From NCBI GenBank assembly GCA_021737225.1, contig JAIPEJ010000003.1:1-41420 (forward strand): a DNA stretch of 41,420 bases. Reading direction: 5' to 3'. The position numbers and the translations under genes are program-made. Below, piece after piece: positions 1 to 18,751 of this stretch. The notes under the pieces were generated by a model, which saw only the letters and a program-made list of their open reading frames with translations, did not search any database and was not told the origin of the DNA. Positions within the stretch are counted from its first letter, which is position 1. Every line of letters starts with the position of its first letter. This DNA is from Desulfobacteraceae bacterium. Lineage in GTDB: Bacteria; Desulfobacterota; Desulfobacteria; Desulfobacterales; Desulfosalsimonadaceae.

Positions 1-656
1 GCTTCAATCTCCAGCGGATCCTCCTGCTCAAGGGATCGTTTCCCTTTGTCTCTGGTAAATACCGATCGCATGTGCCATGGAATGATAAGGTGGCCTATCA
101 TCAAGGCCATCGTAAACTTGTGTCTAGCCACATGCTCCATGGTATTATCAAGTATTATAAAAGGTTCAGGCATGGATTTATGAAGTATTCCTTCGTAGGG
201 CAAGGGGTTCGAGGAATAGATAACATTTATGTCCAGGCGGTTGGCGACCTCGAAGGGGTCGATGGGTAAGGTATTATATTCAATTTGCCGTAGCAAATAC
301 TCAGCATATGAAGCTGACTCATTGAGCATCGGAAATTCGCCGAAGCGAATGGAGCCTGTTAGTTGGTGGAGGTACTCGATAACTTTTGTTTTTTCCTCCG
401 CGGTAAAAAAGTTGACAGCAGCATGAATCAGTTGCGTAGATGGCTCGCGAGTGTTTCTATCCTGGATGCCCCAAAAATAGCTTATCGGGACGTCCAACGC
501 GCTGGATAACTTTATAAGGAGTGAGTAGGAAGGGTTCCGTAATCCGTTTTCAATCTGACTGACATAACCTATCGAAATACCAATTTTTTTTGCCAAGTCT
601 TCTTGGGTCAACCGATATTCTTTACGTTTACTGGAAACCCTTGGTCCAAGCGTCAT
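1..656 (-). CDS. XRE-family regulator with ImmA/IrrE-like C-terminal domain (partial, runs off window edge)
   Basis: The reading frame starts at ATG 656-654, behind a good Shine-Dalgarno (AAAGGGGA), and stays open to base 1, so the C-terminus is missing. Residues about 5-65 form a typical XRE helix-turn-helix (RLTQEDLAKKIGIS, then GYVSQIENGLRNPS). The later part has the layout of an ImmA/IrrE (M78) peptidase domain: RHKFTMALMIGHLIIPWH matches the usual FTLAHELGH region. The zinc motif is degenerate, however. The first His and the catalytic Glu of HExxH are replaced by Leu and Met, while the second His is kept, so the domain is probably not an active protease. Proteins of this build often regulate mobile or defence genes by DNA binding. 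It is divergent from the ubiquitin-like operon with about 245 bp between them, so it may repress that operon; this is inferred from position only. Confidence 0.8.
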   Translation of the reverse strand, partial: MTLGPRVSSKRKEYRLTQEDLAKKIGISIGYVSQIENGLRNPSYSLLIKLSSALDVPISYFWGIQDRNTREPSTQLIHAAVNFFTAEEKTKVIEYLHQLTGSIRFGEFPMLNESASYAEYLLRQIEYNTLPIDPFEVANRLDINVIYSSNPLPYEGILHKSMPEPFIILDNTMEHVARHKFTMALMIGHLIIPWHMRSVFTRDKGKRSLEQEDPLEIE

Positions 657-900
657 TATAATCCCCTTTCATTATATAGCCGATCGTTAAAGGGCGCGTG
701 TATCATATTTCACCTTCCATAGGCAACCATTAGGCTTAGATAGAGCGGGTCGTATTTTTAAAGAATTTAACACATAGTTAAAATAAAAAATAGCTTTTTG
801 TAAAAATTTCTTGCATTATGTTTCCAGATTCGATAAAAAAGAATCAGTCAAGGTCGGCTTGGCAGAAATAACAACATTGGTTAAAGAAAGGGATTACATT

Positions 901-1020
901 ATGAGTGACAAAGAAAAGAAACCGGACCATCCTCCCCACCCGGAACATCCACCGAAACCGGATGTTCCTCCTGGCCCTCCCGATTTTCCACGGCCTCCGC
1001 GTAAACGTGAGGTAGGTTAG
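901..1020 (+). CDS. 39-residue proline-rich peptide ending in Gly; candidate modifier or partner of the E1/E2 system
   Basis: ATG 901 follows a GAAAGGGA ribosome site. An upstream TTG at 811 would give 69 residues but has no such site, so 901 is preferred. The product has 14 prolines in 39 residues, with repeats of the form HPPHPEHPPKP and PPGPP, five lysines, a basic tail and a C-terminal EVG. It should be disordered and soluble, with no signal peptide or membrane segment. Its stop lies 3 bp before the E2 start, and its last codons carry the Shine-Dalgarno of that gene (GAGGTAGG), so the two are probably translated together. In related operons the first small gene often encodes the ubiquitin-like modifier, which is a beta-grasp protein; this peptide is far too short for that fold. 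A C-terminal Gly would suit adenylation by the neighbouring E1. That role is inference; it could also be a scaffold or a substrate. Confidence 0.6.
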   Translation: MSDKEKKPDHPPHPEHPPKPDVPPGPPDFPRPPRKREVG

Positions 1021-1023
1021 CCT

Positions 1024-1905
1024 ATGAAGCCGTGGTGGGAGCGTTTTCCTGAACGACTTGAGCATGAAATCGAAAGGCTGGAGAGCGAGGGGTATTCCTG
1101 CCGGAAGGACGAAGATGCCTTCGAAGCGGGATACGGCGCTCTCCATCTTTCAACACATGTGGAGGGGGTGGGACCGCTTTCTTTGGCGGTCCATTTTTCA
1201 TATCTGCACCCCTACTTCCCCTTCCAGGTAATCTGTAAGGACCTGGATCTCCCGCACCACCAAAATCCGTTCGCCAAAAACTTGTGCATCCTTGGGCGTA
1301 ATCCAGAGCGATGGAATCATACTTGGACAGTTGCTGATGTACTCACGAATATGTTGCCAAAGGTTCTGGAAGCCGGCCAAGCAGACAACCAAGCTTTCAC
1401 CGCACATTTGGAGCAAGATCAGGCTGAGCCCTTTAGCGAGTATTATAGCTTTTATCGGCCCTCAGCGGTGGTATGGGACGGGAGTTGGGTTTTACCTGAA
1501 ACAGTATCCCAAGGATATCTTGAGATGGGCTTTCATCCGTGTGCAAGCCGCAGTCATGGAATTGAGGCTGTAGCTAAGACAGCCGTGCTTTCAATTCTGG
1601 ACCCTGACGGCAGGGTAATAGCAGAGGCTAATCCAAGGCTGGTACAGTTTTTTGGATCGGGGCGAAGAAAGCGATACCCTTGGGTCCGGGTTGAGCAAGA
1701 GATCCGGGAGGCCAACCCGGTTCAATTCGTAAACAGGTTGGCTGAACACAACGCATTCTTGAAAAAGCAGATCGGTGCGATGCTCAAAAAACGTGGCTCA
1801 ATGCTACTGGGAGTGGTGTTTCCTGAGGAGGTAAAACGCAGGAAAACTTCTGATGGATGGGTATTTGTCTATGTCAAAGTCAAAAAAAGCTCAAAAAAAA
1901 GATGA
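1024..1905 (+). CDS. E2-like (ubiquitin-conjugating fold) protein with C-terminal extension
   Basis: This 293-residue protein has an N-terminal segment of about 115 residues resembling prokaryotic E2/UBC-fold proteins. It contains a YPF-like strand (HPYFPFQVI), then H79-Q-N81 in the place of the eukaryotic HPN motif, then Cys88 in NLCIL as the likely thioester cysteine, then a Trp-rich helix start (RWNHTWTVADVL). Residues about 125-293 form an extra region that I do not recognise. It includes EPFSEYYSFYRPS and a Lys/Arg-rich end. Known bacterial E2s receive a modifier from an E1 and pass it to a target or membrane lipid. The gene sits between the small peptide (3 bp gap) and the E1 gene (53 bp overlap), which supports one operon. 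The assignment rests on motif pattern and context rather than a clear full-length match. Confidence 0.75.
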   Translation: MKPWWERFPERLEHEIERLESEGYSCRKDEDAFEAGYGALHLSTHVEGVGPLSLAVHFSYLHPYFPFQVICKDLDLPHHQNPFAKNLCILGRNPERWNHTWTVADVLTNMLPKVLEAGQADNQAFTAHLEQDQAEPFSEYYSFYRPSAVVWDGSWVLPETVSQGYLEMGFHPCASRSHGIEAVAKTAVLSILDPDGRVIAEANPRLVQFFGSGRRKRYPWVRVEQEIREANPVQFVNRLAEHNAFLKKQIGAMLKKRGSMLLGVVFPEEVKRRKTSDGWVFVYVKVKKSSKKR

Positions 1906-2779
1906 AATTCAGTTGGAGGGCGTCTTTCTGCAACCCCACCGCGGCGGTCTCCAGGATGTGAGCGCAAGGCTCCCCTTTTTAGCTGGCATGAACAACAAGA
2001 AGGTATCCCTTATCGGTCTGGGGTGCCTCGGTGCGCCCTGCGCTCTTGAGTTGGCTCGCTCCGGCATTGGTCAATTGCACCTTGTAGACGATGATACTGT
2101 AGATCTTGGAACTACTGTGCGTTGGCCTTTTGGCTCCTCGGAAATCGGCAATTACAAGGTGGATGTACTGGAACGTTTCATTCAGGAAAATTACCCTTAC
2201 ACTAATGTTACTAAATCTTTCTGTAACTTAGGCATAGCACCATTGGACCCTATCGGCGATAGTAACCATTTAGAAGAGGTGGAACGTGTATTCCAGGAAA
2301 GCGATCTTGTCTTTGATGCGTCGGCGAACCTCAATGTAAATCATCTGCTTTCGGATCTGGCTCAAGAAAGACAACTCCCCTATCTGGCAATTACCGTGAC
2401 ATATGGTGCATGGGGAGGGCATATTGTTCGGGTCAGGCCGGGCAAAACTGTCGGTTGCTGGCAATGCTATCGCCGGTTTTTGGATGGAGATCAGACAATC
2501 CCTTATGCCCACGGCGACCCAAGAGGTTTAGTGCAACCGGGAGGATGTGGCACACCCACCTATACCGGTGCAGGCTTTGATGCCTTGGAAATCGCGATGG
2601 GTGGAGTTCGGATGGCAGCATCTACCCTGACCGAGAATGAACAAAATGGGTATCCAACCACCCCTTGGGATGTGGCGGTAATCAACTTGCGTAACGCAAC
2701 GGGAGAAATGATCCCGCCCCATTGGCAGACTTTTCCTCTACAAAAGCATCCGGGATGTGCTTGCGTAAAAAAGTTATGA
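1853..2779 (+). CDS. E1/ThiF-like modifier-activating enzyme
   Basis: The 308-residue protein carries a Rossmann-type adenylation domain. The ATP-binding loop is GLGCLG (residues 55-60), followed by the acidic run DDDTVD (79-84), an Arg (R90) and GNYK (K102), the usual ATP-handling residues of the E1/MoeB/ThiF family. GGCGTPTYTGAGFD (Cys232) matches the conserved segment that holds the candidate catalytic cysteine in E1s of bacterial ubiquitin-like operons. CWQC (202-205) and a C-terminal CAC (302-304) form a split zinc site. It should adenylate the C-terminus of a modifier and pass it to the E2. ATG 1853 is chosen because AGGA lies nine bases upstream; ATG 1871 is an alternative. The start overlaps the E2 gene by 53 bp and the stop overlaps the JAMM gene at ATGA. 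GC content is below that of the core genes, consistent with transfer. Confidence 0.9.
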   Translation: MDGYLSMSKSKKAQKKDEIQLEGVFLQPHRGGLQDVSARLPFLAGMNNKKVSLIGLGCLGAPCALELARSGIGQLHLVDDDTVDLGTTVRWPFGSSEIGNYKVDVLERFIQENYPYTNVTKSFCNLGIAPLDPIGDSNHLEEVERVFQESDLVFDASANLNVNHLLSDLAQERQLPYLAITVTYGAWGGHIVRVRPGKTVGCWQCYRRFLDGDQTIPYAHGDPRGLVQPGGCGTPTYTGAGFDALEIAMGGVRMAASTLTENEQNGYPTTPWDVAVINLRNATGEMIPPHWQTFPLQKHPGCACVKKL

Positions 2780-3276
2780 GAACCGCGTGGATCTCCTATC
2801 GTGATGTTGCTTTCATGCAACAGGAGGCTGAACGGGCATTTCCTTTGGAGACGGGCGGGGTTCTCATGGGTTATTGGACCAAGAATAATCAAGACGCAGT
2901 CATCCGATCAGTGATTGGCCCGGGCCCTAAGGCAAAGCATGAGCGCTCTTCTTTTGCCCCGGATTATGAATGGCAGGAAATGCAGATTGCATGTATTTAT
3001 AAGGATTCAGGGCGTTTTTTTACCTATCTTGGGGACTGGCATTCACACCCGGATGGATTATCAAGACTCAGTTTGAAAGACCGTATCACACTGTGGCGCA
3101 TTGCCAATTACAGGCAGGCCAGAATCGCCCACCCAATTATGGTCATTTTGGCTGGACCGCAGTGGAAGATTAAATTATGGCGACAGGACTGCATGGTTTT
3201 GTTTGATGCTTTTATACTTCCCTTTATTAGGGAGATACGGGTTTATCAATACTGCCACCAATACAAATTTCTATAA
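2776..3276 (+). CDS. JAMM/JAB (MPN) metalloprotease, deubiquitinase-like
   Basis: The ATG at 2776 overlaps the E1 stop as ATGA and gives 166 residues; a longer frame from 2722 would overlap the E1 gene more and is less likely. The JAMM zinc motif is complete: Glu25 in PLETGG, then H89-S-H91, seven residues to Ser99, and Asp102 (HSHPDG, then LSLKD). Such enzymes cut isopeptide bonds or trim the modifier tail. In bacterial ubiquitin-like systems they act as the deconjugating or maturing protease, as Cap3 does for Cap2. With E1 and E2 in the same operon, that role is the natural reading here. The C-terminus after about residue 125 is hydrophobic and aromatic and is not assigned. No terminator is obvious after the stop. 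Confidence 0.9.
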   Translation: MRTAWISYRDVAFMQQEAERAFPLETGGVLMGYWTKNNQDAVIRSVIGPGPKAKHERSSFAPDYEWQEMQIACIYKDSGRFFTYLGDWHSHPDGLSRLSLKDRITLWRIANYRQARIAHPIMVILAGPQWKIKLWRQDCMVLFDAFILPFIREIRVYQYCHQYKFL

Positions 3277-3616
3277 AATGTTCTTGTCATAGACTTAACC
3301 TGAACAATTTTTCGGGCTTCAGAAAAGAATGCTTGCCACTGTCCGCTCCAAGGCAAAAACAATTTTTGTCAACATTGAATCTGGCAATCTGCTTGGCCCG
3401 AGAGGCGCACTACTGGCGTTTCATAGCATGGTGCAGTGGGCCGGAAAACTGGTTGTTTGGCGGTGAACTGGGGCGCAGATATGGGGCACAGATGGGTCGG
3501 GCTGGCGGGAGTGAGAGTTTCCGATGCCAGAAAATACGATAAGGACTGTCGGTTTTCACGAGTTCTCTTCGAGTCGTCCTTGAGCCTTCAGGGAAAATTC
3601 TTGCAGGCTCTTTTTT
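3277..3616. other. Intergenic stretch without a supported gene
   Basis: About 340 bp lie between the JAMM gene and the decayed nuclease. Short open frames exist in several phases but none has a ribosome site, a family resemblance or a sensible composition. I see no hairpin with a T-run, so the end of the operon transcript is not defined by sequence alone. Confidence 0.5.
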
Positions 3617-3936
3617 CTATTTTGAATGCCGCCACTTCCAGGGCGGGATAGGGCAGGCCTGTTGCCAGAGCCCTATCTCGGATTCCCGGGCTTGGTTTTC
3701 CAGATCCCCCCAGGCATTGCAATCCCGAATGCGGCAGTATCTGTCATATACCCACGCGAATCCGACACGTACCAATTCCTCATTCAGCCATTCACCGTCG
3801 CTCTCGATATAGACCAGACCCACCGTCCTGCCATACTTGGTTCTTTCTCCTCCCTCGTTAGGCAGTTTTTGCTTAACCCCCGATTTTGCATGAGGGATAC
3901 TTCGTCCCCATCTGTTTCTGTCTGCAGGGCTTCCAT
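3617..3936 (-). pseudogene. Decayed staphylococcal-nuclease-like (TNase) gene, C-terminal remnant
   Basis: Reading from about 3841 down to 3617, the frame gives KYGRTVGLVYIESDGEWLNE, then a cysteine-containing segment, then a Trp-rich end (IPPWKWRHSK). This matches the C-terminal half of secreted thermonuclease-like proteins. The N-terminal half with the DGDT and Arg/Glu catalytic region is missing. Further upstream the same frame is open but does not resemble a nuclease. A different frame starts at ATG 3936 behind a GAGGA ribosome site and ends after 50 codons (MEALQTETDGDEVSL...). So an expressed start appears to be joined out of frame to the nuclease tail. It lies directly downstream of the recombinase gene. 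I read it as debris of island rearrangement, probably non-functional. Confidence 0.65.
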
Positions 3937-3951
3937 CTTTGGTCCTCTATA

Positions 3952-4542
3952 TTAAATTTCGTTCATCAGGATTCCGTTGATCTCCTTGTCCTCAACACCC
4001 AGGTAGCGCATGGTCACGGCCGGACTGCTGTGGTTGAAGCGTTTGCAGAGCAGCTCGAATCCGATTCCGTAGTGGACCCGCTGGATGTATCCGAAAGTCT
4101 TTCTCAGGCTGTGGGTCCCATAATTGCCGCGCATGTTGATCTGGTCGCACCACGACTTGATCATCCGGTTGGCCGCGCTCACCGTGATGGGCCCGCTACC
4201 CTTCTGGCTGGGAAACAGGTATTCCTCCGGACCTGGCCGACGGTGCTTCAGGTAGTTGGCCAGGGTTTTGTGGGTGGCCTTGTTGACGAGCAGTATGTTT
4301 TCCTTGCCGGTCTTCTGTTCCCGGACCCGAATGATGTCACCCTGCTTTGCCCCTTCGACATCCTTTACCTTGAGCTTTAACAAGTCGCTGATCCGCAGCC
4401 CATTATTAATCCCCATCGTAAAAAGCAGAAGATCCCTGGGACGATCAGAGAGGAGTTTTTTAATGGACCTGATGTCCTCGATCCTTCGGATGGGTTCGAC
4501 GGTGATTCGGGAACCTTTTTTTGGGTGGTTTGTGTTCTGAAT
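3952..4542 (-). CDS. Short tyrosine recombinase/integrase (catalytic domain), non-ATG or damaged start
   Basis: The catalytic domain of a phage-type tyrosine recombinase is clear: Arg in NGLRISDLLKL, HSLRKTFG (HxxR), FNHSSP and the nucleophile Tyr in VTMRYLG. Similarity to a short-integrase family continues upstream of the first ATG (4416) through SIKKLLSDRPRDLLLFT and back to an in-frame stop at 4557-4555. Translation must therefore begin between these points, where the best candidate is ATT at 4542. No good ribosome site precedes it. Either a rare start codon is used or the true N-terminus has been lost by a frameshift or deletion. The length (about 196 codons) suits integrases that lack the arm-binding domain. 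It may have moved the island or act as a resolvase-like accessory. The gene is followed within 20 bp by the decayed nuclease. Confidence 0.75.
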   Translation of the reverse strand: MQNTNHPKKGSRITVEPIRRIEDIRSIKKLLSDRPRDLLLFTMGINNGLRISDLLKLKVKDVEGAKQGDIIRVREQKTGKENILLVNKATHKTLANYLKHRRPGPEEYLFPSQKGSGPITVSAANRMIKSWCDQINMRGNYGTHSLRKTFGYIQRVHYGIGFELLCKRFNHSSPAVTMRYLGVEDKEINGILMNEI

Positions 4543-5323: not shown

Positions 5324-7363
5324 TTACTCCACCCCCAAGGCCTTAAACACCGCATCCACTGGATCTGAGTAGAAGCTGGTCTGAAACTTGGCAAAAAGTT
5401 CGCCCGGGACGCTGGGGATGTCATTAACATTGCTCATCGGCAGCAGGATACGTTTGGCCCCGGAGTCAAAGGCCACCTGAAGGGCTTCTGCCACGTTGGT
5501 TGCCGGCACGATATTGCCCCCAAGGCTCATGTCTCCCAGTACCACCAGTTGATTTAACACGGGTTTGCCCATCAGCCCGGAGCAAAAGGCGATCAGGCTG
5601 CAAAGGGTCAGGGGGCGTGCAGGGCCGGTATTATGGATTTCAACAGTGTGGAGATGGTAGTCATGGTCTCCTACCTTGCTCATGGAACTGACCCTGGAAA
5701 TATTGGCCTTGAAATAATCAAATGCGATCTTGATGGCCTCCTTTGTTTTCGGATCCGCCCCGGAGCCTGAAACAGACAGCCTGCCGTTGCCGCCCACCAC
5801 CTGCAGTTCCAGGCGATAAAGGCCCATGTGTTCCCGTGTACCCATAACAACTGTATGAAGCGTGCCGGGGTTTGAAGGCCCTTCCGGTATCAGTGCCCCT
5901 CCCCGCTGTTCGGGCACACTGGTAAATTTTTCTTCCAGGCTGTCAGCGTCGATATAAGAGAAGTGCACATCGTAAAATTCCATCCCGCCGATCTTCTTTA
6001 ATTGTTCTTTGACCCGGCGACGGGATTCCAGGGCGTAACCCAGGCATTTTTCCACCACCTCCTTGTCATATTCCCCGTGCGGATACAGGAGCTTTAACAT
6101 ACCGGACACGGTCTTTCGCACTGCGATTACATCGCGCTGGTTCAGGTTGTTGCCGAGTTTAAAATAGGACTCGAGTGCATCGGCAAAATTGCGCTTTCGC
6201 ATCTCACGGAAATATTCTGCCAGAAAATCCACGATCAGGCCGTAGCGGCTTGTCAGAAATTCCGGCTTCATCTTGGGTATTTCCCAGCCGGGAACATAGG
6301 CGTGCATGCGGTCAAAAAAGGCGGAATCAATCATTTCCTCTGGAAACGGGGCAAACAGGTGACCGGTTTTCACCAGGTTTTCGACACTCTGGTTGAGGTT
6401 GCCCACAAATACCATGGCCGCATTGGCATTGATCACATCCCGCCCCCGGGAAAAGGAGCCCGAGGCCATATAGTCTTTCATGACCTGGATACCGTCCTGG
6501 TCCTTGAACTTGATGCCCGCCACCTCGTCAAATGCCACCACGTCCCATACGCCCACCAGGCCGACTTTCCGGGTGTTCATGTTGTAAAATAGGTTGGGCA
6601 CCGTGGTCTGGCCGCCGGATACCAGTATGGAGTTGGGGCTGATTTCCTTGTAGACGTGGCTTTTGCCGGTGCCCCGCGGCCCAAGCTCGCAGATATTGTA
6701 ATTGTTTTCCACAAGGGGGATCAGCCGGGCAAGCAGGTGCCACTTGGTCCGCTCTTCAAACACGGTGGGCTCAAGCCCGGTGGACCGCAGCAGCACATCC
6801 ATCCACTGGCTTTCCGTAAAAGACCTTCTGCCTTCAAACAAGGCCTCCATGTCCAGGTTGGGCATCTGGATCGGCTTTAATTCTTCCAGTAAAAAGGGAG
6901 AGGTCCTGCCGCCTTCCTCATAGTAATATTGCAGGGTCAGAATGCACCAGATACCGCCCACCAGGAGCTTTTCAAACTGCTTGACATAAGCGCTCGAAAT
7001 TTCAATGCCCTTCACGCCCAGGTTGGCCAGTTGTGCCTCGTACACGTCGCGGCGTTCATTTAACTTTACAGTCACCTTGTCTATGATCTTGAAATGCCCC
7101 TGCTCCTTGATCCGGGACTTGACCTTTTCCGACTCGTCCGGGCGCACATAATTGTCTGCCAGGATACTCTTGACGGTTTTCATGCCGTCTGCAATGACTT
7201 CCTCGTCTTCCACGGCACAATACATCCCGAGCAGGTATTCCAGCACAAAGACCGGGACGTTTGCCCCTTCTTTTAAGAGCTTGGTCAGGTCCTTTCGCAC
7301 CACCCTGCCGGCAAAATGGATGTTTAACAATACATCAATGTCTGTTTCCGCGTTTGCTTCCAT
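5324..7363 (-). CDS. brxL: BREX system AAA+ / Lon-like protein BrxL
   Basis: This is the last gene of the BREX operon (679 residues). The N-terminal 200 residues match BrxL. The AAA+ domain has Walker A GPRGTGKS (228-235), Walker B VVAFDE (275-280) and a sensor-like Asn in GNLNQ. The C-terminal part (from about 490) has the Lon protease fold pattern (LVVLGDMSLGGNIVP). The Lon catalytic pair seems absent: the Ser position reads GPARP (Ala582), and the Lys position within NVAEALQVA also aligns with Ala (about 627). This suggests a DNA-acting motor with a structural Lon-like domain rather than a protease. BrxL homologues are hexameric AAA+ proteins needed for phage defence in several type 1 systems. 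It lies 11 bp after pglZ and is followed by a terminator. Confidence 0.95.
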   Translation of the reverse strand: MEANAETDIDVLLNIHFAGRVVRKDLTKLLKEGANVPVFVLEYLLGMYCAVEDEEVIADGMKTVKSILADNYVRPDESEKVKSRIKEQGHFKIIDKVTVKLNERRDVYEAQLANLGVKGIEISSAYVKQFEKLLVGGIWCILTLQYYYEEGGRTSPFLLEELKPIQMPNLDMEALFEGRRSFTESQWMDVLLRSTGLEPTVFEERTKWHLLARLIPLVENNYNICELGPRGTGKSHVYKEISPNSILVSGGQTTVPNLFYNMNTRKVGLVGVWDVVAFDEVAGIKFKDQDGIQVMKDYMASGSFSRGRDVINANAAMVFVGNLNQSVENLVKTGHLFAPFPEEMIDSAFFDRMHAYVPGWEIPKMKPEFLTSRYGLIVDFLAEYFREMRKRNFADALESYFKLGNNLNQRDVIAVRKTVSGMLKLLYPHGEYDKEVVEKCLGYALESRRRVKEQLKKIGGMEFYDVHFSYIDADSLEEKFTSVPEQRGGALIPEGPSNPGTLHTVVMGTREHMGLYRLELQVVGGNGRLSVSGSGADPKTKEAIKIAFDYFKANISRVSSMSKVGDHDYHLHTVEIHNTGPARPLTLCSLIAFCSGLMGKPVLNQLVVLGDMSLGGNIVPATNVAEALQVAFDSGAKRILLPMSNVNDIPSVPGELFAKFQTSFYSDPVDAVFKALGVE

Positions 7364-7374
7364 GCCAACGTCCT

Positions 7375-9996
7375 TTAAAAGTCGTTTGTAAAGGCCAGGT
7401 CAATATAAAGAGAAATCCGATCGTATTCAGTGTCATCATCTGCATGCCGCATCACCAGGTCATAGGGCCGGCTGCTGTCAAACTGGCCGGATTTCAGGTG
7501 CAGCTTTATGCTGCGGGTGCGATCCTCCACAGAAGCGCTCTGGCTGTCAAAGGTCACGGTCTCCTCGTTGCTGATCAACGTGCTGCCGTCTCTGATGGAG
7601 ATTTTCAGCACCCTGGAATGGACTCGCTCGGATACGGCATCCGTCTGGATAAACTTAAACCGCGGGATATTGGTGACGATCTTTTTATGGGTGCCCAGAA
7701 GCGACACCCCGACCCGGCGCACCTCGGTCTCAGCCAGCCGGCCGCCCTTGGCCTCTGTCACCGTGACCACTGGCACGGCGATTTCCTGGGGCATGGTTCC
7801 GCCATGAAAAAACCGCGCCCCGCCTGAGAAAGAAAACCGCTGGGACCCTTTCGGGGTGATAAAGCCAAGGTCGGTTTCTGTGCCGGCTGTGTTTTTGGTG
7901 GCTCCGTAAAATGCATTCTGCGGCCGCTCAAGGTCTTTTCCAAGGATAAACCGCTTGTGCTGCTTTATTATGCTGTTTTTAGATGCCTCCATACTGGTCT
8001 TGTCCAGGGAAGCCGGCGGCTTTTCATGATACACAAATCCATGATCCGCGGTAATGATCACCCGGGTGCCGTTTAAGCTGTTAATGATAAAGCTGACCAT
8101 GGCATACAAATCCTCGATCGCCTGGCGCACCGCGTGAAAGGTTTCCCCCTCTGAGGCGGCCTTATCGCCGATTGCATCGATTCTGTCATGATAGATATAG
8201 ATGACCCGGTACGGCTTTACAAATTCGCGGCCCTGGTCCTTTGTCATGGCCATGAGGCTGTCTGCCTTAATGGCAGTACCCTCACGGGAAGCCAGGATTT
8301 TTTCGCGTTGCTCCATTGAGGCAACCGGGCTGCCGTCTGCCAGCACATCTGCCTTTTCTGTAAACGAAAGGGTCTTGTGCGGCAGAAGGCTTGCCATGCC
8401 GAGTGCGGTATATCCGGGCAACACCCCCAGCATAGCAGACAGACTGGCTTTCAACCGGTATCTGGAATTAATTTCCCGGGTAAATTCTTCTGCCGCCTCA
8501 TAGCGCAGGGCATCGCTTGCAATCACAAAGATCCGGTTTCTGGGGTTGGCCTTGATAACCGGCTCGACAAATTCCCTAAAGAACCGGTACTGGTTGCAGA
8601 TCTTCGGTAGGTGCCAGTCATCGAGCAGGCCGGAGCTGTTGTCTGCTTGCAGGAAATCGCCCCAGGCAAGTCCGATGTTTTCCAGAAACCAGCCGGTGTA
8701 GCAGTTTTCAACCGATTCGCGCAGGGTCTTTAAAACATCCCACCCGGCTTTTTCCACAGCATCCGCGCTTTCATTAAACACCCGGTAAAACTGGTCAAAA
8801 TAAAACAGTTCCCTGGTGTAGGCGGAAAACATTGCCGCTGCCTCAGGATAAGTCATGCCTTCATCATATTTCTTCCGCAGGTCAAACAGTCGGGTGGCTT
8901 TTTCAAGGGCATGGTAGGCTGCCTGGTAGCGGTTGGCCTGGTGGCCGCCTCCTGGTGCGGCGCTTGCCCAGTAACCGTCCAGCCGACGGTTGATAATGGC
9001 CCGTATCTGATCAAAACTCTGCCCGCCGTTTTCTATGACGGCATCGCGCAGGGCGCTTATAATGCGTTGTTCAACCGCCTCAAAGGTCATGACATCCTGT
9101 AAGGCCTGTGGCTCATAGGCAGAGAGCAGGTTGGGCGCGTCGATTTTTTTGCCGATAGCACCTGAGATGATATGGTAGTGATTATGGTACTTGATATGGC
9201 TGCGCCATTGGGACAAAAAAACGGGAGCGTTTAAAGCACGGCCATTTTCCGGCAGCACAAAGTGGACAACAGATGCCGGGACTTCGCCGTTTATGGAGCC
9301 GGCCATCTCCGTGACCATCAGCCGCAGGATCAGGTCTGCCAGGCCGGGACTTTCCTGGTTGTCATACCCGAAGGTTTGGGCGGCAAATTTCCAGAAGCGC
9401 TCTTCCAGGCCCATTTTCCGGATATCATCCCAGGCCCTTGGAACCTGTTTTTCATCATAGCGGTCCTGGTCGCAGCAGGCCTCGTATAGCTTTATCAAAA
9501 CGGAAAACAGGTCTGGTTGATCGGCCCGGGCAAGCACGGCCATCATCTTGACGGCCAGTTCATCCTCCCTGTCCTGGGGCGCCGCCCATTTTTTAAGCCT
9601 TTCCCAGCGGTCCGCGCTTCTGAAAAAAGCCAGGTGCTCCCTGATAAAGGAGCGAACAGCCTGGTTTTCCAAGCTGAGATCATTTGCGATAATAGAGGCC
9701 TTGTCAGCATGAAAAGTCCGGCTGTAAAGGCGGATGTCAATAAGCCAGTCGTCTTCTGCTGCCGGTTCATGATGGGGGGCATACAGCAGATACCGGCTGT
9801 ATGCGTCCTCGATCTCTAGGCGGATCTTGATTTCAAGGGGGCTGTATTCATCAAGCCGGAGCACATTGACACCATCCATGCCCAGCTCCGACAGTGTTTC
9901 TGTAAATTCCTGTTCCCCGTCATACCAGAACACGATCCGGTGTTTTTCCTTGTCAAATATGTCCTGGAGGGCTTCTTTTATTTGTTTGTTATCCAT
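7375..9996 (-). CDS. pglZ: BREX type 1 protein PglZ (alkaline-phosphatase superfamily)
   Basis: The 873-residue product is the signature protein of BREX. The alkaline-phosphatase-like core contains VIASDALRYEAA (metal-binding Asp495), IYHDRIDAIGDK (about 602-612) and ITADHGFVYHE (Asp651, His652), all in the order usual for PglZ. The N-terminal 480 residues are mainly helical and the C-terminal 200 are strand-rich. PglZ works with BrxB, BrxC and PglX in site-specific DNA methylation and phage exclusion. ATG 9996 follows a 40-codon ORF by three bases. The gene is 421 bp from the toxin gene upstream, the only large gap in the BREX operon. Confidence 0.95.
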   Translation of the reverse strand: MDNKQIKEALQDIFDKEKHRIVFWYDGEQEFTETLSELGMDGVNVLRLDEYSPLEIKIRLEIEDAYSRYLLYAPHHEPAAEDDWLIDIRLYSRTFHADKASIIANDLSLENQAVRSFIREHLAFFRSADRWERLKKWAAPQDREDELAVKMMAVLARADQPDLFSVLIKLYEACCDQDRYDEKQVPRAWDDIRKMGLEERFWKFAAQTFGYDNQESPGLADLILRLMVTEMAGSINGEVPASVVHFVLPENGRALNAPVFLSQWRSHIKYHNHYHIISGAIGKKIDAPNLLSAYEPQALQDVMTFEAVEQRIISALRDAVIENGGQSFDQIRAIINRRLDGYWASAAPGGGHQANRYQAAYHALEKATRLFDLRKKYDEGMTYPEAAAMFSAYTRELFYFDQFYRVFNESADAVEKAGWDVLKTLRESVENCYTGWFLENIGLAWGDFLQADNSSGLLDDWHLPKICNQYRFFREFVEPVIKANPRNRIFVIASDALRYEAAEEFTREINSRYRLKASLSAMLGVLPGYTALGMASLLPHKTLSFTEKADVLADGSPVASMEQREKILASREGTAIKADSLMAMTKDQGREFVKPYRVIYIYHDRIDAIGDKAASEGETFHAVRQAIEDLYAMVSFIINSLNGTRVIITADHGFVYHEKPPASLDKTSMEASKNSIIKQHKRFILGKDLERPQNAFYGATKNTAGTETDLGFITPKGSQRFSFSGGARFFHGGTMPQEIAVPVVTVTEAKGGRLAETEVRRVGVSLLGTHKKIVTNIPRFKFIQTDAVSERVHSRVLKISIRDGSTLISNEETVTFDSQSASVEDRTRSIKLHLKSGQFDSSRPYDLVMRHADDDTEYDRISLYIDLAFTNDF

Positions 9997-9999
9997 TGC

Positions 10000-10122
10000 T
10001 TACAGCCCCAATACCTTTCTGAGCTTAGCCGTTACCTGTATTGGCGGAAAAGAGCGTGGTGGTATACCAAAGGGCCACGCCTGAAGCACGCGGTTTAAAA
10101 TATTTCGCTTTTCACTAGTCAT
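10000..10122 (-). CDS. Small 40-residue ORF just upstream of pglZ; possible remnant of an AbiEi-type HTH
   Basis: ATG 10122 opens a frame of 40 codons (MTSEKRNILNRVLQAWPFG... ending RKVLGL) that stops three bases before the pglZ start. The beginning resembles the N-terminal winged-helix segment of AbiEi-like antitoxins (ILNRVLQAWPFG), but the resemblance ends early. It could be the stump of a deleted antitoxin gene or a small leader gene coupled to pglZ. No clear ribosome site is visible. The 295 bp between it and the toxin gene (10123-10417) hold only low-complexity sequence with a repeated CGGCCAGAGTCA motif on this strand, and no gene I can support. Confidence 0.4.
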   Translation of the reverse strand: MTSEKRNILNRVLQAWPFGIPPRSFPPIQVTAKLRKVLGL

Positions 10123-10417
10123 GGTTGTTTATTTAGCCCTACAGTAAACCGATTCAATTATTCTCCACGTTTCCCTTTGAAAGCAATGTGACGACCTTAT
10201 CCCGCAATGACTCTGGCCGCGACTATAGCTGCGGCTCTAGCTGTGACTCTGGCCGGTTTCCATTGGCCCTGCACCAGCCTGTTATGTTTAAATTCCTTGT
10301 GTCCCTTTTTCCAGCAGGACAACCGGGGCGCTCGACTTGGTCGCCGACCGGGTCGCTGTCGCCTATTTTCGGCTGTTTTTTCTGGCTTCCATCCATGATA
10401 TTGAGAGTACCCGTGTT

Positions 10418-10726
10418 CTATCGTCTTTTCTTTAAGCGTCTTGAAATCCATGCGGGGTCTCTTCGCATGGGCAAAACAGCGGCAACATAGGCGATGCCCT
10501 CGACGATGTCATAGTAAATGGCGTAAGGGAAACGCTTGGCAAGCATTTGATACAGCCCGTGCTTCTTGCGATGGATCCCGGCATATATTATCAAAGATTC
10601 GATATCCGCGATCAGGCAATCCCAGAAATAGTCGCCAACACCTGATTCCTGACGGTCATAAAAAGCCCTGCCTCCTTCCAGATCCCCAACCGCTTCCTTC
10701 AGTATATAGACATCTTTTACTTTCAT
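10418..10726 (-). CDS. RelE/ParE-family toxin
   Basis: The 102-residue protein has the ParE/RelE pattern: an N-terminal strand and helix (YILKEAVGDLEGGRAFYD), a central helix with HRKKHGLYQMLAKRFPY, then the final strands IYYDIVEGIAYVAAVL and MRRDPAWI. Family members act as ribosome-dependent RNases or gyrase poisons; ParE-like members of this type are often of uncertain target. Its ATG overlaps the antitoxin stop (ATGA), the normal layout for co-translated toxin-antitoxin pairs. The pair sits inside the BREX operon between pglX and pglZ in the same orientation, so it is probably carried on the BREX transcript as well as its own. Confidence 0.85.
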   Translation of the reverse strand: MKVKDVYILKEAVGDLEGGRAFYDRQESGVGDYFWDCLIADIESLIIYAGIHRKKHGLYQMLAKRFPYAIYYDIVEGIAYVAAVLPMRRDPAWISRRLKKRR

Positions 10727-10929
10727 CGTCTGCGGCTTGCCTTGAGTTCGGAAAGAGAAACAAACCTGGCGCTGCCGTCTGCAATGGTCTTTTTTCTTTC
10801 TTCGAGCACTTCTTCATGCCATTCAGGCGTCCCGATTTCCTGATTTTCATACAGCAGTGAATCCCAAAGCGCTTCCATGGCCTGGAGGCGCTCGGCCCTG
10901 CTCATTTTTTTTACATCGTTAATGTTCAT
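10723..10929 (-). CDS. Antitoxin of the addiction-module component type
   Basis: The 68-residue protein (MNINDVKKMSRAERLQAMEALWDSL, then TPEWHEEVLEERKK) matches short antitoxins of the addiction-module component family (TIGR02574/PF09720), which pair with ParE-like toxins. These bind and neutralise the toxin and often repress the pair's promoter. A strong ribosome site (AAGGAGG) precedes the ATG. It starts 49 bp after the pglX stop and overlaps the toxin gene by four bases. Confidence 0.85.
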   Translation of the reverse strand: MNINDVKKMSRAERLQAMEALWDSLLYENQEIGTPEWHEEVLEERKKTIADGSARFVSLSELKASRRR

Positions 10930-10978
10930 TTATTCCTCCTTGTTATTTGCTTTTCATTCAAAATAATCATTAATCCGT

Positions 10979-13900
10979 TTATTTGCCGCAGACCGCTTTG
11001 GTTTCTGCCAGCAGGGTACCGAATTTGGCATAGTTAACTTTGACCCCGTCATCAAGGTCGAGGTTGATTTTCCGGTCAGCCAGGTGGCGGAGCTGGTCGT
11101 CAAAAGCAGCGAGTTCCGCCTGTTTTTTGCCGAGCAAATCCATTTCCTTCTGGAGCTTTTTCTTTGCAGAGGCAGAGGGTGCGGCATCAAGCTCGTTTTG
11201 CAGGTATTGCATGCGCGCGGAAAAATTGCCCTGCAATGGGGTGACATACAGGCTGCGCATGCGCGAAAGCGTGGATTCGTTGTAGCGGTGGAGGTAAACT
11301 AGGCATTCAAAAGCCTTGTGTTTGCCCGAGGAAAACAGCCAGTAAATGGGCCGCCTTTTATACATGCGCAGATGATCCTTGAAAAAGCTCGTGCTGATAT
11401 AGCGCCGGATGGTTTCCACAGGGGCCTCGTTGTTTTTGGTGCCCAGGCTTTCTGCCACGAACCCGAGGTTTTCTTCCAGGTGTTCTTCCGGCCAGGCGGT
11501 TTTAATAAACTCCACAAACCTGTGGGTGGCGTCATCTTCAAACCAGTCCCGGTCCATCACCGGTATGATGGCGTCATCATCTGCCGGAAAAGTCTTGTAC
11601 CTTTCAGGGTCAAAGCCGATGTTTCCCTCGCGGGCATAGATCAGGCCGGGTTCATCCAGTGAGTATCTGCCCATCATGCAGCCGATGGCATAGGAGATGA
11701 GTTCCTTGATGGTGTCGGTTTGGAGTTGTGCCTCGAGTTCATCTTCGGATTTGTTGCCGCCGTAGCGGTAATAGGGGTTGCAGGTGAGGGTGATTTCTTC
11801 GAGGGGAACGTCCGATGTCAGCTCGTCCTGAAGTCCGTAAGCCTTAATGAAGATGCGGTTGTTTTCTTCTTCGAGGCGTTTCATTTCCATGGTCGTTTCA
11901 TGGCAATGCATATAAAATTTCTCACAGGTTGATTTGATTTTCCTTTGGTAATTATCCGATTGCAATAATTTTAATTTTTTGAAATCCCATGATATCTCAA
12001 ATAAGTCCCAATCTGATTTCGAAATCTTAACTAACTTTTCACCAATAGGGGAAAAATTTTCCGCATCCTTAAATGGAAGCCGGGCTATTGTACCTTGTTC
12101 AAAATTTAAGGTTTGCGATAAAATAGAAAGAAAAAACGTAGTAACCGGAGTATTCAAGTAAATGATTAAGGTTAATGCGTCCGAAGAATTATCGGTTGGT
12201 ATCTTAGAACCTGCGTCGCTAAAAATAAAACCTTCTTCAGTATACCTAGCTGAAAATAATGATGAAGTTATTTTTCCCCAAGTAACTCCTGGTTTAAAAT
12301 AAAAATCAGGGTTTTTTGCAACGTAATCAGGGTTCCCTTTTAAATACGGGTATTTTCTTAAAATATTTTGTTTTATTTCAGATCCATCGTGTTGCCAGTT
12401 AACTATGGCAAAATTATTACCATACCATTTTCTATAACCTCCGCCTTTATCCATCGGGAACCATTTCATCCCAGTTTGGGCAGCCTGTTGACGGGATTTC
12501 ATGCCGAAGCCAATTTTGGTAATATTTACCTCAAACCAAAATCTTACAAATCTATTGTTATCAGTGGTAGCCAAGCCCTGCCGAGGCATATATAGGTCTG
12601 CAATTGTGGGGTTTTCTTCAAAAGCTTTGAAAGCGGAATCGGTAGCCCAATATGCGATCGGACTGCCCGGAATTTTTTGAAAATCATGTGGCTTTGCAGT
12701 ATAATACCAACCACAATCAGGGTTGTTTATTGCTTCTTTTGTTTTAGGACCCTGGTTTTCCGCGCCCCTGAAATCCGCCAGCCTTATAAAAGAAGACAAA
12801 TATTCAGGGATATGCTGGTTGAGGATCGTATAAGTGCAAATCGGGACAGTTGCCCCGGCAAACCCTGAGTATTCGAGCTGTACAAGAGAGGTTAACAGCT
12901 TTTGGTTAATTACAAAGTCTCTCAAGTTTTCATAGCTTGAGATAAACATCCAGACATACGGGGACATATAACCCAACTGGCCGTTGTTTTTTGCCAGTCG
13001 CATATCCCGGACCACAAATGCTGAAAACAAGTCTTTTTCAAAACCGCTGTAACTGTTTTTCAAAAGGGTCTTTAAATCTGGGTTCAGATATTTGTTCCCC
13101 ATATACGGCGGATTGGTCACCACGCAGTCATACTTCCCAGCCAGCATCCTTGCCTGCCTCACCAGGGCAACCAAGTTCTGCGCGCCGCTGATTGTAAAGC
13201 CCGTTCCGATTTTTTCATCCACCGCCTTTTGCAGGGTATCCAGTTTTTCTGCCAGGTGATCCGGGATCGTGATCAGGGAACCAAAGGTTTTGGCGTTTTC
13301 AAACAGGGTGACAAGTTCCTTTAAACCATCTCTTACCTGCGCGCAATCCTCCCCCTTGAAAAACAGGTCGATATTGCGGAGGTCAGTTCGCGTGGACGGC
13401 TGGATGGACATGATATTAAGAGGAGTTCTGTTTCTGGAAAAGATGTTTCTGTCATCTGCCCGGGCGCGCATCAGTACGGCAAATCCGGCCAGTTGTGCGG
13501 CCCGGTCGTCGATTTCCAGACCAAAAAGATTGTTTTTCAGGATCAGACTTGGGATATCCCGGGTGCGGTAGCCGCGCTCCTGGTAGATCTGCTTGAAAAT
13601 GTCATAGGCTTCCACCAGGATGTGGCCGGAGCCGCAGGCCGGATCCATAAAGGTGATTTCCTCGGGATTTAACGTATTCGGGGTTATGGCATCGAGCTGC
13701 TTTTGTACTTCGGGCTCCTGTTCTGCAGGCTCGATGTAGAAATCCATCCGGCTGCGCAATGGGGAGTCCGGGTAGGTGGCCAGCCACATCCGGCCCAGGG
13801 TATTCTGGGTCATGTATTTGACGATCCAGTTGGGGGTGAAAAGCTGGGTGGCAGCCGGGATGTCTTCGCTTTTGACCGTCTTGCCGATGACCTCGGATTT

Positions 13901-14557
13901 TTTCTCCGAAATATAGAACTGATAAATCCAGCCGATAATTTCCACATCCTGCCACAGGGATTCGTCGAGTTCAGTGACCAGTTTCCTGATGGGCGAATCC
14001 GAATGCAGGAGGTTGTCGGGCAGAAGGAGCTCGGTTTCCGAGTCAATGGGCTCAAATAAAAACGGCATGGCCTGGTGCAGGGCATTGCACTGGGCCACGA
14101 TGATCATTCGGTAAAGTTCATTGTCCCGGTTCCCGGCAAGGCGAAGTTCAAGCACCTTGTCCTTATCCAGGCCCGGCAGATCCACGTCAGCGGCGCGGGA
14201 AACAATTTCAGGCACATCTGATCCATTTGGGTGGCTCAACACCCGCAGGCCATGGTCCAGGTAGTCGTGGAGTTCCATGTAGCGAAGCGCTACAAAACGG
14301 TTAAACCAGGTATAGGCCATGGACCGGATCATCATGTCAAAGCCCTGGCTTTGGACCCGCTGGACCAGTTTTTCGCGCAGTTCACCTTCCTTTTGGGTAA
14401 CTGCGCGGTCGCCGATCATTGCCACATCCCCCTTAAAGGAGATTTCTTCTATATGCTCGTCTCCGAATATGCCGAAGCGGTTGGCCCGCTGGGTTACGGC
14501 TTCTATGAAATCGTTTCTGGCTTTTGGCGCATAGGCCTTGATTTTGGAGGTGTCCAT
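10979..14557 (-). CDS. pglX: BREX-1 adenine-specific DNA methyltransferase PglX
   Basis: The 1192-residue enzyme carries the SAM-binding motif MDPACGSGH (residues 304-312) and the catalytic NPPY (482-485) of gamma-class N6-adenine methyltransferases. The first 250 residues contain the usual PglX helical region. PglX marks host DNA at a non-palindromic site and is the specificity subunit of BREX. The segment coding residues of about 530-885 (roughly 11.9-13.0 kb) is much more AT-rich than both flanks; this is where target recognition lies in such enzymes, so the specificity region may have been exchanged by recombination. The gene begins five bases after the brxC stop. No strong ribosome site is seen, which suggests coupling to brxC. 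Confidence 0.95.
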   Translation of the reverse strand: MDTSKIKAYAPKARNDFIEAVTQRANRFGIFGDEHIEEISFKGDVAMIGDRAVTQKEGELREKLVQRVQSQGFDMMIRSMAYTWFNRFVALRYMELHDYLDHGLRVLSHPNGSDVPEIVSRAADVDLPGLDKDKVLELRLAGNRDNELYRMIIVAQCNALHQAMPFLFEPIDSETELLLPDNLLHSDSPIRKLVTELDESLWQDVEIIGWIYQFYISEKKSEVIGKTVKSEDIPAATQLFTPNWIVKYMTQNTLGRMWLATYPDSPLRSRMDFYIEPAEQEPEVQKQLDAITPNTLNPEEITFMDPACGSGHILVEAYDIFKQIYQERGYRTRDIPSLILKNNLFGLEIDDRAAQLAGFAVLMRARADDRNIFSRNRTPLNIMSIQPSTRTDLRNIDLFFKGEDCAQVRDGLKELVTLFENAKTFGSLITIPDHLAEKLDTLQKAVDEKIGTGFTISGAQNLVALVRQARMLAGKYDCVVTNPPYMGNKYLNPDLKTLLKNSYSGFEKDLFSAFVVRDMRLAKNNGQLGYMSPYVWMFISSYENLRDFVINQKLLTSLVQLEYSGFAGATVPICTYTILNQHIPEYLSSFIRLADFRGAENQGPKTKEAINNPDCGWYYTAKPHDFQKIPGSPIAYWATDSAFKAFEENPTIADLYMPRQGLATTDNNRFVRFWFEVNITKIGFGMKSRQQAAQTGMKWFPMDKGGGYRKWYGNNFAIVNWQHDGSEIKQNILRKYPYLKGNPDYVAKNPDFYFKPGVTWGKITSSLFSARYTEEGFIFSDAGSKIPTDNSSDALTLIIYLNTPVTTFFLSILSQTLNFEQGTIARLPFKDAENFSPIGEKLVKISKSDWDLFEISWDFKKLKLLQSDNYQRKIKSTCEKFYMHCHETTMEMKRLEEENNRIFIKAYGLQDELTSDVPLEEITLTCNPYYRYGGNKSEDELEAQLQTDTIKELISYAIGCMMGRYSLDEPGLIYAREGNIGFDPERYKTFPADDDAIIPVMDRDWFEDDATHRFVEFIKTAWPEEHLEENLGFVAESLGTKNNEAPVETIRRYISTSFFKDHLRMYKRRPIYWLFSSGKHKAFECLVYLHRYNESTLSRMRSLYVTPLQGNFSARMQYLQNELDAAPSASAKKKLQKEMDLLGKKQAELAAFDDQLRHLADRKINLDLDDGVKVNYAKFGTLLAETKAVCGK

Positions 14558-14562
14558 ATTAT

Positions 14563-17500: not shown

Positions 17501-18126
17501 TCGCGCTCTTGTTCCCAGGGTAGGCCGTAGATGCGTTGGAATTCTTTTTTAAATGTGTCAAATCGCTCCTTGCGGGTCAGGTAGCGTTCCATTTCGGCAA
17601 GCGCCAGGGAATCTCCGCAGAATCCCAGGTGCTGGTTGAAAATCCGCCAGAAGGTTGTAAGAAGCGCGGTTCGGCCGTCTGTGGCATCCGCCCGGCTGTC
17701 GATGTTAAAAAGGATCACGTCGGTATCCACGCCGGCAATGCGCTTGATATCGCCGAGTAGCATGGGATCTGCGATTTTTTCGGCAAAAAACTCGGTTGCT
17801 TTCTTTTCCCGGCCTGTACCTGGTTCATGGGCGTTGCGGTTTTCCAGCAGATAGGAAAGGATCTTTAAAAAATGCGATTTTCCGGATCCGAAAAAGCCGG
17901 ATATCCATACCCCGATCCTGCTGGCAAGCACCGGATCCGCGGCATTATCAATAGAACCCAAGTAAGCGGAAAGAAACTTTCGCAGGTGGCTCCCCAGTTC
18001 CTGAGTAATCACGTATTCATCAAGTTCCTGCCAGATGATGGACTCATCGAGCTGATCCGCCTTGACCACGCCGTTGATGGGGCGGGCGATGTCTTTTGCA
18101 AAAATCTGTTTGATCTGCATTTTCAA
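14563..18126 (-). CDS. brxC: BREX P-loop ATPase BrxC
   Basis: The 1187-residue protein matches BrxC/PglY. The N-terminal P-loop is GFFGSGKSH (from residue 77), inside WISGFFGSGKSHFLKILSYLL, and a Walker B-like segment (LVFLVDEMGQF) lies near residue 270. The C-terminal 400 residues contain coiled-coil-rich segments (EKILNAPAPYG... and EKQREQTDKELDG). BrxC is an essential ATPase of type 1 BREX and is thought to work with BrxB and PglZ around the methyltransferase. It lies 15 bp after brxB and 5 bp before pglX. I see no frameshift. Confidence 0.95.
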   Translation of the reverse strand: MKMQIKQIFAKDIARPINGVVKADQLDESIIWQELDEYVITQELGSHLRKFLSAYLGSIDNAADPVLASRIGVWISGFFGSGKSHFLKILSYLLENRNAHEPGTGREKKATEFFAEKIADPMLLGDIKRIAGVDTDVILFNIDSRADATDGRTALLTTFWRIFNQHLGFCGDSLALAEMERYLTRKERFDTFKKEFQRIYGLPWEQERDAYILIKDEIVQALSIALEKDQTSAGQWFDQITTDFTLSVENFVKRVNEYLNTRSASHRLVFLVDEMGQFIGDDTHLMLNLQTLIEDLGRTCQGRAWVVVTAQEDIDAVIGYLNAAKSNDFSKITGRFNTRLSLSSTNTDEVIQARLLEKTNEAEAELKTLFVEKGDIIKNQLSFTHDSSTMYNFTDAGDFVTNYPFAPYHFQLLQKIFESIRKAGATGLHLAKGERSLLDAFQSAANNISDREVSALSPLYEFYPCIESFLDTAVKRSIDQARTHPGLSPPFDICVLQTLFLIRYVDIIKSNVDNLVTLCIDQVDADRVALKKEIEGALERLEKETLISRNGDLYFFLTNEEREVSREIKNTQVLASKEVELLGDIIFDDILKSRTKHRYAPFKRDYPFNRICDGRIWGKELQDEIGIEIISPLNDEYSLFTPPKCNFHSANQEGFVVIRLADDEEMTGGLRLYLQTQKYINDKSNAAASNTLQEILHKNAKENGDRRKRLTAKIAQLIADADFYALGKPISVKGQTAAKAVEEALDYVVENTFSKFNYLSSIAEEPVKEIKTILQADDTSQHQLKLDLEEQPPQDIQEIATFIDLKARSNHAIMLDELVAHFSKKPYGWPEYQVVILVAKYFMAGNINLVADGGKLAPKDAVAPLSKTSQWKQVGIVKRKKISKADIENAQKLAKDLFGSIAPEHQDKLAGFIRDGLSEWRGQAEKYKPLADTGSYPGQKEINEILSLVNKLGQIQDSYELIRSFNEMAADLRDAADDLHELNDFYTNQKPAWERLQSAMARFAPNKTLLSKNEAAAKALRKMEKILNAPAPYGMLKDADDLISAVEAINTSLVEKQREQTDKELDGWIQQVKTELDDAKANDDLRNSALYPFQQIRKRLDHETSIPQIDYAVKEAQEAFETAIEKIEEAIPADDEKKPKKQTKTISPAAFVNKTWIETEKDVEDFIQQLREALLESVNQNTRIRIK

Positions 18127-18141
18127 TGACCCTGTTTGCCG

Positions 18142-18726: not shown

Positions 18727-18751
18727 TATGCGCCACCTGTTTCAAATACAG

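Follow-up and report, generated by a model that had tools for sequence, protein, structure and literature searches.

To our knowledge, every modifier conjugated by ubiquitin-activating (E1) and ubiquitin-conjugating (E2) enzymes has a folded domain, either the ubiquitin fold or, in the cyclic oligonucleotide-based antiphage signaling system (CBASS), a cGAS/DncV-like nucleotidyltransferase (CD-NTase) enzyme. The modifier of the Bil/Bub operons is a folded ubiquitin-like protein. Pupylation relies on PafA and Dop and on a tag with a C-terminal Glu or Gln, and the MccB system (microcin C7) is not known to use an E2 or JAMM protease, and it yields a peptide-nucleotide, not a protein conjugate. Pup and UBact show that a short, intrinsically disordered bacterial protein can serve as a covalent tag, and the enzymes that attach Pup are described as unrelated to E1 and E2 (PMC5286830). 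In type II CBASS, Cap2 conjugates the CD-NTase via a C-terminal Gly or Ala, which is reported to be conserved only where full Cap2 and Cap3 are present, and the penultimate residues vary (PMC10097602). Here, we analyzed a 41,420-nucleotide stretch of DNA from a Desulfobacteraceae bacterium (GenBank assembly GCA_021737225.1, contig JAIPEJ010000003.1, positions 1 to 41,420; the whole stretch is referred to as the window). An operon at positions 901 to 3276 encodes E2-like, E1-like and JAMM proteins behind a short proline-rich open reading frame (ORF). Judging from sequence comparisons, we put the probability at roughly 0.74 that the encoded peptide is itself the covalent modifier of this E1-E2-JAMM pathway, in place of a folded tag.

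The peptide gene (901..1020, +) runs from an ATG at 901 to a stop at 1020, and a Shine-Dalgarno-like AAAGGG (887..892, +) lies 8 nt 5' of its start. The predicted product, MSDKEKKPDHPPHPEHPPKPDVPPGPPDFPRPPRKREVG, is a putative modifier of 39 residues, with 14 Pro (36%), 5 Lys, one Phe, no Cys and the C-terminal sequence REVG, which includes the conserved Val-Gly end. After a gap of 3 bp comes the gene for an E2-like conjugating protein (1024..1905, +), which matches Prok-E2_B (Pfam E-value of 1.3e-11) and has Cys88 after the motif HQNP. This gene overlaps by 53 bp with that of an E1-like activating protein of the ThiF fold (1853..2779, +; E-value of 9e-23), in which the motifs GLGCLG, GGCGTPTYTG and CxxC...CxC are found. 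The last gene (2776..3276, +) is joined to the E1 gene by an ATGA overlap and encodes a JAMM/Prok-JAB protease (Prok-JAB, with JAB also matched; 1.8e-11) with Glu25 and HSH...S..D, the proposed maturation and deconjugation enzyme. Its start was placed at ATG 2776; a mechanical ORF list begins the same ORF at TTG 2722. The PADLOC models for E1-E2 and JAB matched E1 and JAMM strongly and E2 weakly. A Pfam search with the peptide gave no match. None of the four genes, to which the search was confined, matched a CD-NTase model (Pfam, PADLOC), and the operon, which ends with the JAMM gene, contains no CBASS effector. The tight four-gene unit, the composition of the peptide and the lack of a beta-grasp or CD-NTase gene in the operon were all claims of a preliminary description made from this DNA alone, and they agree with the sequence.

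Homologous loci were collected from two samples. A tblastn search of plasmids with E1 returned 38 records, 17 of them with at least 80% cover, and nine of the 38 were taken into the family. Scanning a single genome per species with a profile supplied 45 further loci, for a total of 55 including the window (individual loci carry L numbers). E2 was detected with a profile built from these same loci, and peptide start codons in the homologues were picked by script score. The E2 profile matched in 53 of the 55 loci with a homologous E1, and a Pro-rich ORF ending in V[G/A] plus 0 to 2 residues was located directly upstream of E2(-E1) in 52 of the 55, or 52 of the 53 with E2. This is the comparison that the preliminary description had proposed, and its expectation that the ORF would be conserved in homologous operons was borne out, with the VG end almost invariant. 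The loci that lack the peptide are L046 and L053, which have E1 without E2, and L056, a decayed operon in which E1 is broken and a frameshifted peptide remnant is found. A second Pro-rich ORF in L054 was false and was ignored. The peptide gene mostly is absent from annotation in the plasmid records examined: the ORF was present 5' of the E2 gene in nine of nine, and an annotated coding sequence was listed for one of them (L005), in an annotation table that is incomplete. The spacing from peptide to E2 was -4 to +10 nt in 37 of the 39 loci measured, out of 52; in L022 and L039, which are outside the 39, first-start E2 frames begin about 80 to 90 nt downstream.

E2 and E1 form a single open frame in 45 of the 55 loci and are split or interrupted in eight, including the window. 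In the window, the two frames separate at eight consecutive A residues (1893..1900, +), where a one-base shift would join them as in the 45 relatives. The 53-bp overlap therefore may have arisen by a recent frameshift, mark a site of slippage or reflect misassembly; the overlap given in the preliminary description exists in the window, but it is not the arrangement of most relatives.

A stringent test then was applied to all 5,647 six-frame ORFs of at least 30 amino acids (aa) in the 55 loci. It demanded a Pro content of at least 25% over the final 40 residues together with a tail of [RK]xVG followed by 0 to 2 residues. The test was passed by 49 ORFs, which belong to 49 different loci and lie just upstream of E2. 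These are not 49 independent events, since some loci are near copies of each other. Among the same ORFs, 12 had the tail without the Pro-richness and 41 had the Pro-richness without the tail, three of the latter being operon peptides with variant tails. The pooled ratio of nonsynonymous to synonymous differences (pN/pS) of the peptide gene was approximately 0.17 (34 non-independent pairs of close relatives). Operon position, tail conservation and pN/pS together rule out a chance or artifactual ORF.

The 52 peptides reduce to 44 distinct sequences, 43 of which are 39 to 76 aa long; the other is a 162-aa protein from L015. Pro makes up 35% of their residues and Gly 13%; 43 of 44 have no Cys, and 39 of 44 have no Trp, Tyr or Phe. 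This composition suggests that the peptide is disordered. The body varies in length among homologues, and conservation is concentrated at the tail: Val is found at position -2 in 44/44, Gly at -1 in 43/44 (Ala in 1/44), and Arg (37) or Lys (5) at -4 in 42/44. The variant tails are GQVG in L022, GKVG in L033 and RPVA in L042. When tail residues were mapped on the E1 tree (28 rows, with no shuffled control), position -3 required five changes and position -4 three, few enough that the tails seem to track E1 clades. Several peptides extend past the Gly, by QQ in L005 and L014 (one sequence), Q in L021, R in L025 and QG in L026; a diverged locus from the window's own phylum, L067, has the tail YG-RACL, with four residues past the Gly. 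Such extensions match the pattern of ubiquitin precursors and could be trimmed by the JAMM protease of the operon. In L015, from a Hymenobacter metagenome-assembled genome, the VG-ending Pro-rich tail is joined to two DUF1508/YegP stretches (1602-2090, +), and this protein is a folded variant of the same proposed modifier. YegP-like genes have been reported next to capK-capS regulators of immune operons (PMC13373217).

The catalytic residues of the enzymes are conserved. E2 and E1 were each aligned in 30 rows, one from the window and 29 from among the 45 genome loci. Pro63, His79, Cys88 and Trp97 of E2 were invariant, as were Cys232, Asp79, Asp81, Arg90, Lys102 and Asp155 of E1; the last five presumably act at the ATP site. 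Three further Cys residues of E1 (202, 205 and 302), resembling Zn ligands, show conservation of at least 90% in the peptide-type family. The closest PDB match of the E1 profile was Cap2 (7tsq, 5e-22), followed by MoeB (1e-21), and MccB and PaaA also were matched. Cys232 aligned with residue 548 of crystallized Cap2, an Ala in the crystal construct that we take to be the mutated catalytic Cys. The AlphaFold2 model of E2 had a predicted local distance difference test score (pLDDT) of 84.7, and its top Foldseek match was the Cap2-CdnD02 complex (E-value of 4e-7, with a template modeling score of only 0.38). The E1 model (pLDDT of 83.7) matched the fold of UBA5 best, then ThiF, MoeB and MccB, with PaaA also matched. 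The JAMM motif was found in 52 of the 55 loci and was missed in L012 (annotated Mov34), L036 and L042 (frameshifted). Thus, E2 and E1 look competent. As in Cap2, an E2 His and Cys are linked to a ThiF-fold E1 with a crossover-loop Cys, here in split frames in the window.

These observations suggest the following scheme. The peptide would be synthesized first; in some relatives it would carry a short extension past the Gly, which JAMM would trim off. E1 would adenylate the C-terminal Gly and form a thioester on Cys232, and the peptide would be handed to Cys88 of E2, which would transfer it to amines of target proteins. JAMM would also remove the peptide from its targets, which would make conjugation reversible. 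The [RK]xVG tail would be the element recognized by E1 and E2, and the Pro-rich stretch would be an extended arm. Conjugation may mark phage or host proteins, hold partners that bind Pro-rich sequences, or control another system. The preliminary description had offered a minimal modifier, a polymerizing tag, and a dedicated target or scaffold as readings. The first fits best, since what is conserved in the peptide is the part that an E1 requires; an obligatory Lys-linked polymer is less favored, because two of the 44 distinct peptides have no Lys.

The nearest kin found is the Cap2/Cap3 machinery of type II CBASS. Twelve loci with more distant E1 relatives, chosen from many, were used as an outgroup, and in nine of them the E2/E1 genes are preceded by a CD-NTase that passed the Pfam cut-off as SMODS or DncV-like. 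An annotated nucleotidyltransferase holds this place in L083, and L074 and L082 were not assigned. The peptide gene therefore occupies the slot of the CD-NTase in type II CBASS. The two systems share homologous E2, E1 and JAMM genes in the same order, aligned E1 Cys positions and the place of the substrate gene. They differ in that a free peptide of 39 to 76 aa (162 aa in the DUF1508 fusion) fills the substrate slot here and in the Zn-ligand-like E1 Cys residues. They also differ at the tail, where Val is invariant at -2 and Arg or Lys is usual at -4 here, whereas the penultimate residues of CD-NTases are reported to vary (PMC10097602). Ten CD-NTase tails were examined, nine from the outgroup and that of L085, leaving out L083 as a cut record. 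Nine of the ten end in Gly or Ala, and nine of the ten have a higher Pro content over the final 25 residues than over the body. The CD-NTase of L085 (SMODS; 3095-4450, -), encoded beside E2-E1, has a Pro-rich tail ending in RDERYG (...PPSPPAPGHVASRPRAPRDERYG), and its E1 groups with that of the peptide-bearing locus L067 (92/88, on long branches). L085 is a possible transitional locus, an evolutionary intermediate; a search of plasmids with its E2-E1 protein found no further CD-NTases of this type. The peptide may be the freed form, or a mimic, of a conjugatable, Pro-containing CD-NTase tail; the alternative to descent from such a tail is convergence on the preference of the E1.

On balance, and with less assurance than for the modifier function itself, we lean toward the wider view that this is a new class of E1-E2 modifier. 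The modifier would be a free, disordered, Pro-rich peptide without a ubiquitin fold that was freed from the tail of a CBASS CD-NTase. Plasmids and chromosomes would have spread it sporadically, as a probable defense or stress system, and it would show that E1, E2 and JAMM need no more of a modifier than a linear VG-type tail. The machinery is of a known, Cap2/Cap3-like kind, and the peptide substrate appears to be new. We found no account of such a peptide in the literature, in a search with thin coverage of subscription journals and none of bioRxiv, so priority is uncertain. If this view is right, the definition of a ubiquitin-like modifier shrinks to its tail, and the peptide would be the first disordered tag to be handled by E1, E2 and JAMM instead of Pup-type enzymes. 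It also would suggest an evolutionary route from enzyme tail to free tag, and the system would offer a minimal tool for peptide tagging.

Several points weigh against the explanation proposed here. The split between peptide-type and CBASS-type E1s is weakly supported (77/64). It takes one step without L085 and two changes when L085 is included, and a single peptide-type clade is merely not rejected by the approximately unbiased test (p-AU of 0.108). The 77/64 support and the single step belong to a first tree, which lacked seven peptide rows and one CBASS row that were missed by the motif script; the two changes belong to a rebuilt tree of 43 rows, trimmed by hidden Markov model, to which L084 and L085 were added and in which L017, L026, L028, L036, L052 and L054 are absent. 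Descent from a freed CD-NTase tail is therefore attractive but not proven. In the fold comparison, UBA5 was the nearest match of the E1 model, and Cap2 came at rank 25. The NCBIfam 6A-MBL cap2_3 model matches E1 (5.9e-17) and JAMM (4e-20), in both cases below its cut-off, and it fits JAMM better than the Cap3 model does; the E1 tree does not contain other Cap2-like lineages such as 6A-MBL. In three of the 52 peptide loci (L030, L047 and L057), the E2/E1 frames are interrupted beyond a simple split. One peptide, in L042 of Nocardioides (2874-3104, +), ends in Ala instead of Gly, although Cap2 tolerates Ala as well, and the JAMM gene of this locus is seemingly frameshifted. In L021 and L025 the peptide stop abuts the E2 start, so close packing of the genes may account for their one-residue extensions. 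Finally, no conserved target or effector was found beside the operon when the retrieved flanks of the 55 loci were examined for ORFs of 80 aa or more.

A modifier encoded elsewhere also was sought. When ORFs of at least 80 aa in the flanks were clustered (pairs with at least 95% identity were not linked), no neighbor was shared by more than seven of the 55 loci; this comparison took in neither shorter ORFs nor a search of the flanks for beta-grasp folds. Only the window E1 exceeded the ThiF cut-off in its own assembly, which is 77% complete. The same assembly has a sole ThiS over the cut-off, which ends in GG and is encoded on another contig (L058, 1417-1656, +). This gene follows that of an aldehyde ferredoxin oxidoreductase, and ThiS was set aside as the beta-grasp partner of the operon on these grounds. 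A search for Multi_ubiq matched nothing in the window's own genome and nothing in the control genomes, so this null result proves nothing. The regular beta-grasp partner that the preliminary description had named as a competing possibility thus was not found in these searches.

If the peptide instead were a dedicated target, a scaffold or a pseudosubstrate, for example an inhibitory tail held in the E1 pocket, the real modifier would be encoded elsewhere. Binding without conjugation is conceivable for a short disordered peptide, and the ThiS protein shows that one candidate exists in the incomplete assembly. However, the best-conserved part of the peptide is its extreme C terminus with the near-invariant Gly, some relatives have residues past this Gly, and neither the flanking ORFs of at least 80 aa nor the ThiS gene, placed as it is after an oxidoreductase gene, offers a partner. 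In addition, the same slot beside kin enzymes is described as encoding the conjugated protein (PMC10097602). We regard this explanation as unlikely. The resemblance to MccB raises another one, in which the peptide is a precursor that E1 activates for modification with a small molecule or into a peptide natural product, as MccB does with the MccA heptapeptide, and that JAMM releases. MccB, too, is an E1-like enzyme whose substrate is a short ribosomal peptide, and its presence with PaaA among the matches of both the E1 model and the E1 profile means that such enzymes do act on short linear peptides. ThiF-type pathways for ribosomally synthesized and post-translationally modified peptides (RiPPs) are recognized by a stand-alone E1-like enzyme with a precursor peptide and export or tailoring genes. 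Of the 55 loci described here, 53 encode an E2, whose Cys88 and His79 are invariant, and 45 carry it in the same frame as E1, as in the conjugating Cap2; the JAMM motif is present in 52, and no export or tailoring gene recurs among neighboring ORFs of at least 80 aa. The main text of a review of ThiF-type RiPPs (PMC12250964) does not contain the terms proline, JAMM, ubiquitin-conjugating or E2-like. Taken together, these points make a precursor role quite unlikely.

The many Pro-Pro motifs of the peptide, and an E2 start that follows closely or overlaps by 4 nt, also would be expected of a regulatory leader, at which elongation factor P (EF-P)-dependent ribosome stalling is coupled to translation of E2. 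We consider this very unlikely, because the peptide is conserved at the protein level up to its last two residues, and because neither the attachment of the tail to DUF1508 nor extension past the Gly would be easy to explain in a stalling leader. That the ORF is a product of chance might be argued from its absence from the listed annotation in eight of the nine plasmid records (an incomplete table), but this idea was refuted already by conservation, position and selection, and its probability is practically nil. A free peptide modifier remains the preferred explanation.

The operon also was compared with other described systems. Like Bil/Bub, it pairs a gene in the modifier slot with genes for E1, E2 and a protease; unlike them, it has a short peptide in that slot. 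It shares with Pup and UBact a short proposed tag that is disordered by composition, and it differs from Pup in its E1/E2/JAMM enzymes and C-terminal Gly (the genome was not searched for PafA). In a type 6a arrangement, E2, E1 and JAB domains are described in one protein beside a metallo-beta-lactamase (PMC1779556). The peptide operon differs from this 6A-MBL cap2_3 arrangement in having no metallo-beta-lactamase gene and a peptide in its stead. Rows 6b and 6c of the same source, the founding survey by Iyer, Burroughs and Aravind (2006), list E2-E1 plus JAB operons of Rhizobium NGR234, and 6b also lists an actinobacterium, "Asp.," which stands for Arthrobacter sp.; as partners, 6b names a nucleotidyltransferase and 6c a metal-binding protein, and these rows describe no Pro-rich peptide (PMC1779556). 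Both genera also are represented in the peptide family, a match at the level of genus.

Peptide operons were found in Pseudomonadota, Bacteroidota, Actinomycetota, Planctomycetota and KSB1. Further loci with the peptide are L003, from the window's order, L084, L068 (whose peptide is identical to that of L025) and the diverged L067. Within the window's phylum, 2/395 genomes had a match; further searches matched 1/345, 2/398 and 3/376 genomes (one of the last three being the CBASS-type L085), and within the window's order the count was 1/360. Each of these counts includes the query genome, and at most three candidates were scored per genome in the drawn sets, so that members may be missed. A search with the E2 protein matched 2/98 genomes and yielded L003, which is cut by the contig end and whose peptide ends in KHRPVG. 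At the thresholds used, members of the family are few and scattered. Typing classed 26 of the 38 plasmids with an E1 match, CBASS-type ones included, as conjugative. A phage-borne system was considered and rejected, as no relative was found in viral_contigs or phage records at the sensitivities used.

In the window, the operon is preceded by a divergent gene for an XRE-type helix-turn-helix (HTH) protein (1..656, -; open to the contig start), a possible regulator of the operon. It is followed by an integrase fragment (3952-4416), a bacteriophage exclusion (BREX) set identified with PADLOC models (BrxL, PglZ, PglX, BrxC, BrxB and BrxA; 5324-19372, -) and SmpB (20680-21141). This region looks like a defense island, and since the BREX set adjoins the operon, an anti-phage or stress role is plausible. 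Bub operons are reported to carry CapH/CapP regulators in some cases (PMC13373217). Genes for M78/IrrE peptidases were observed in the flanks of seven peptide operons (L022, L037, L038, L041, L042, L043 and L054), where by analogy they suggest only CapH/CapP-like regulation; in three of the seven (L022, L041 and L042), the gene is fused to an XRE HTH domain.

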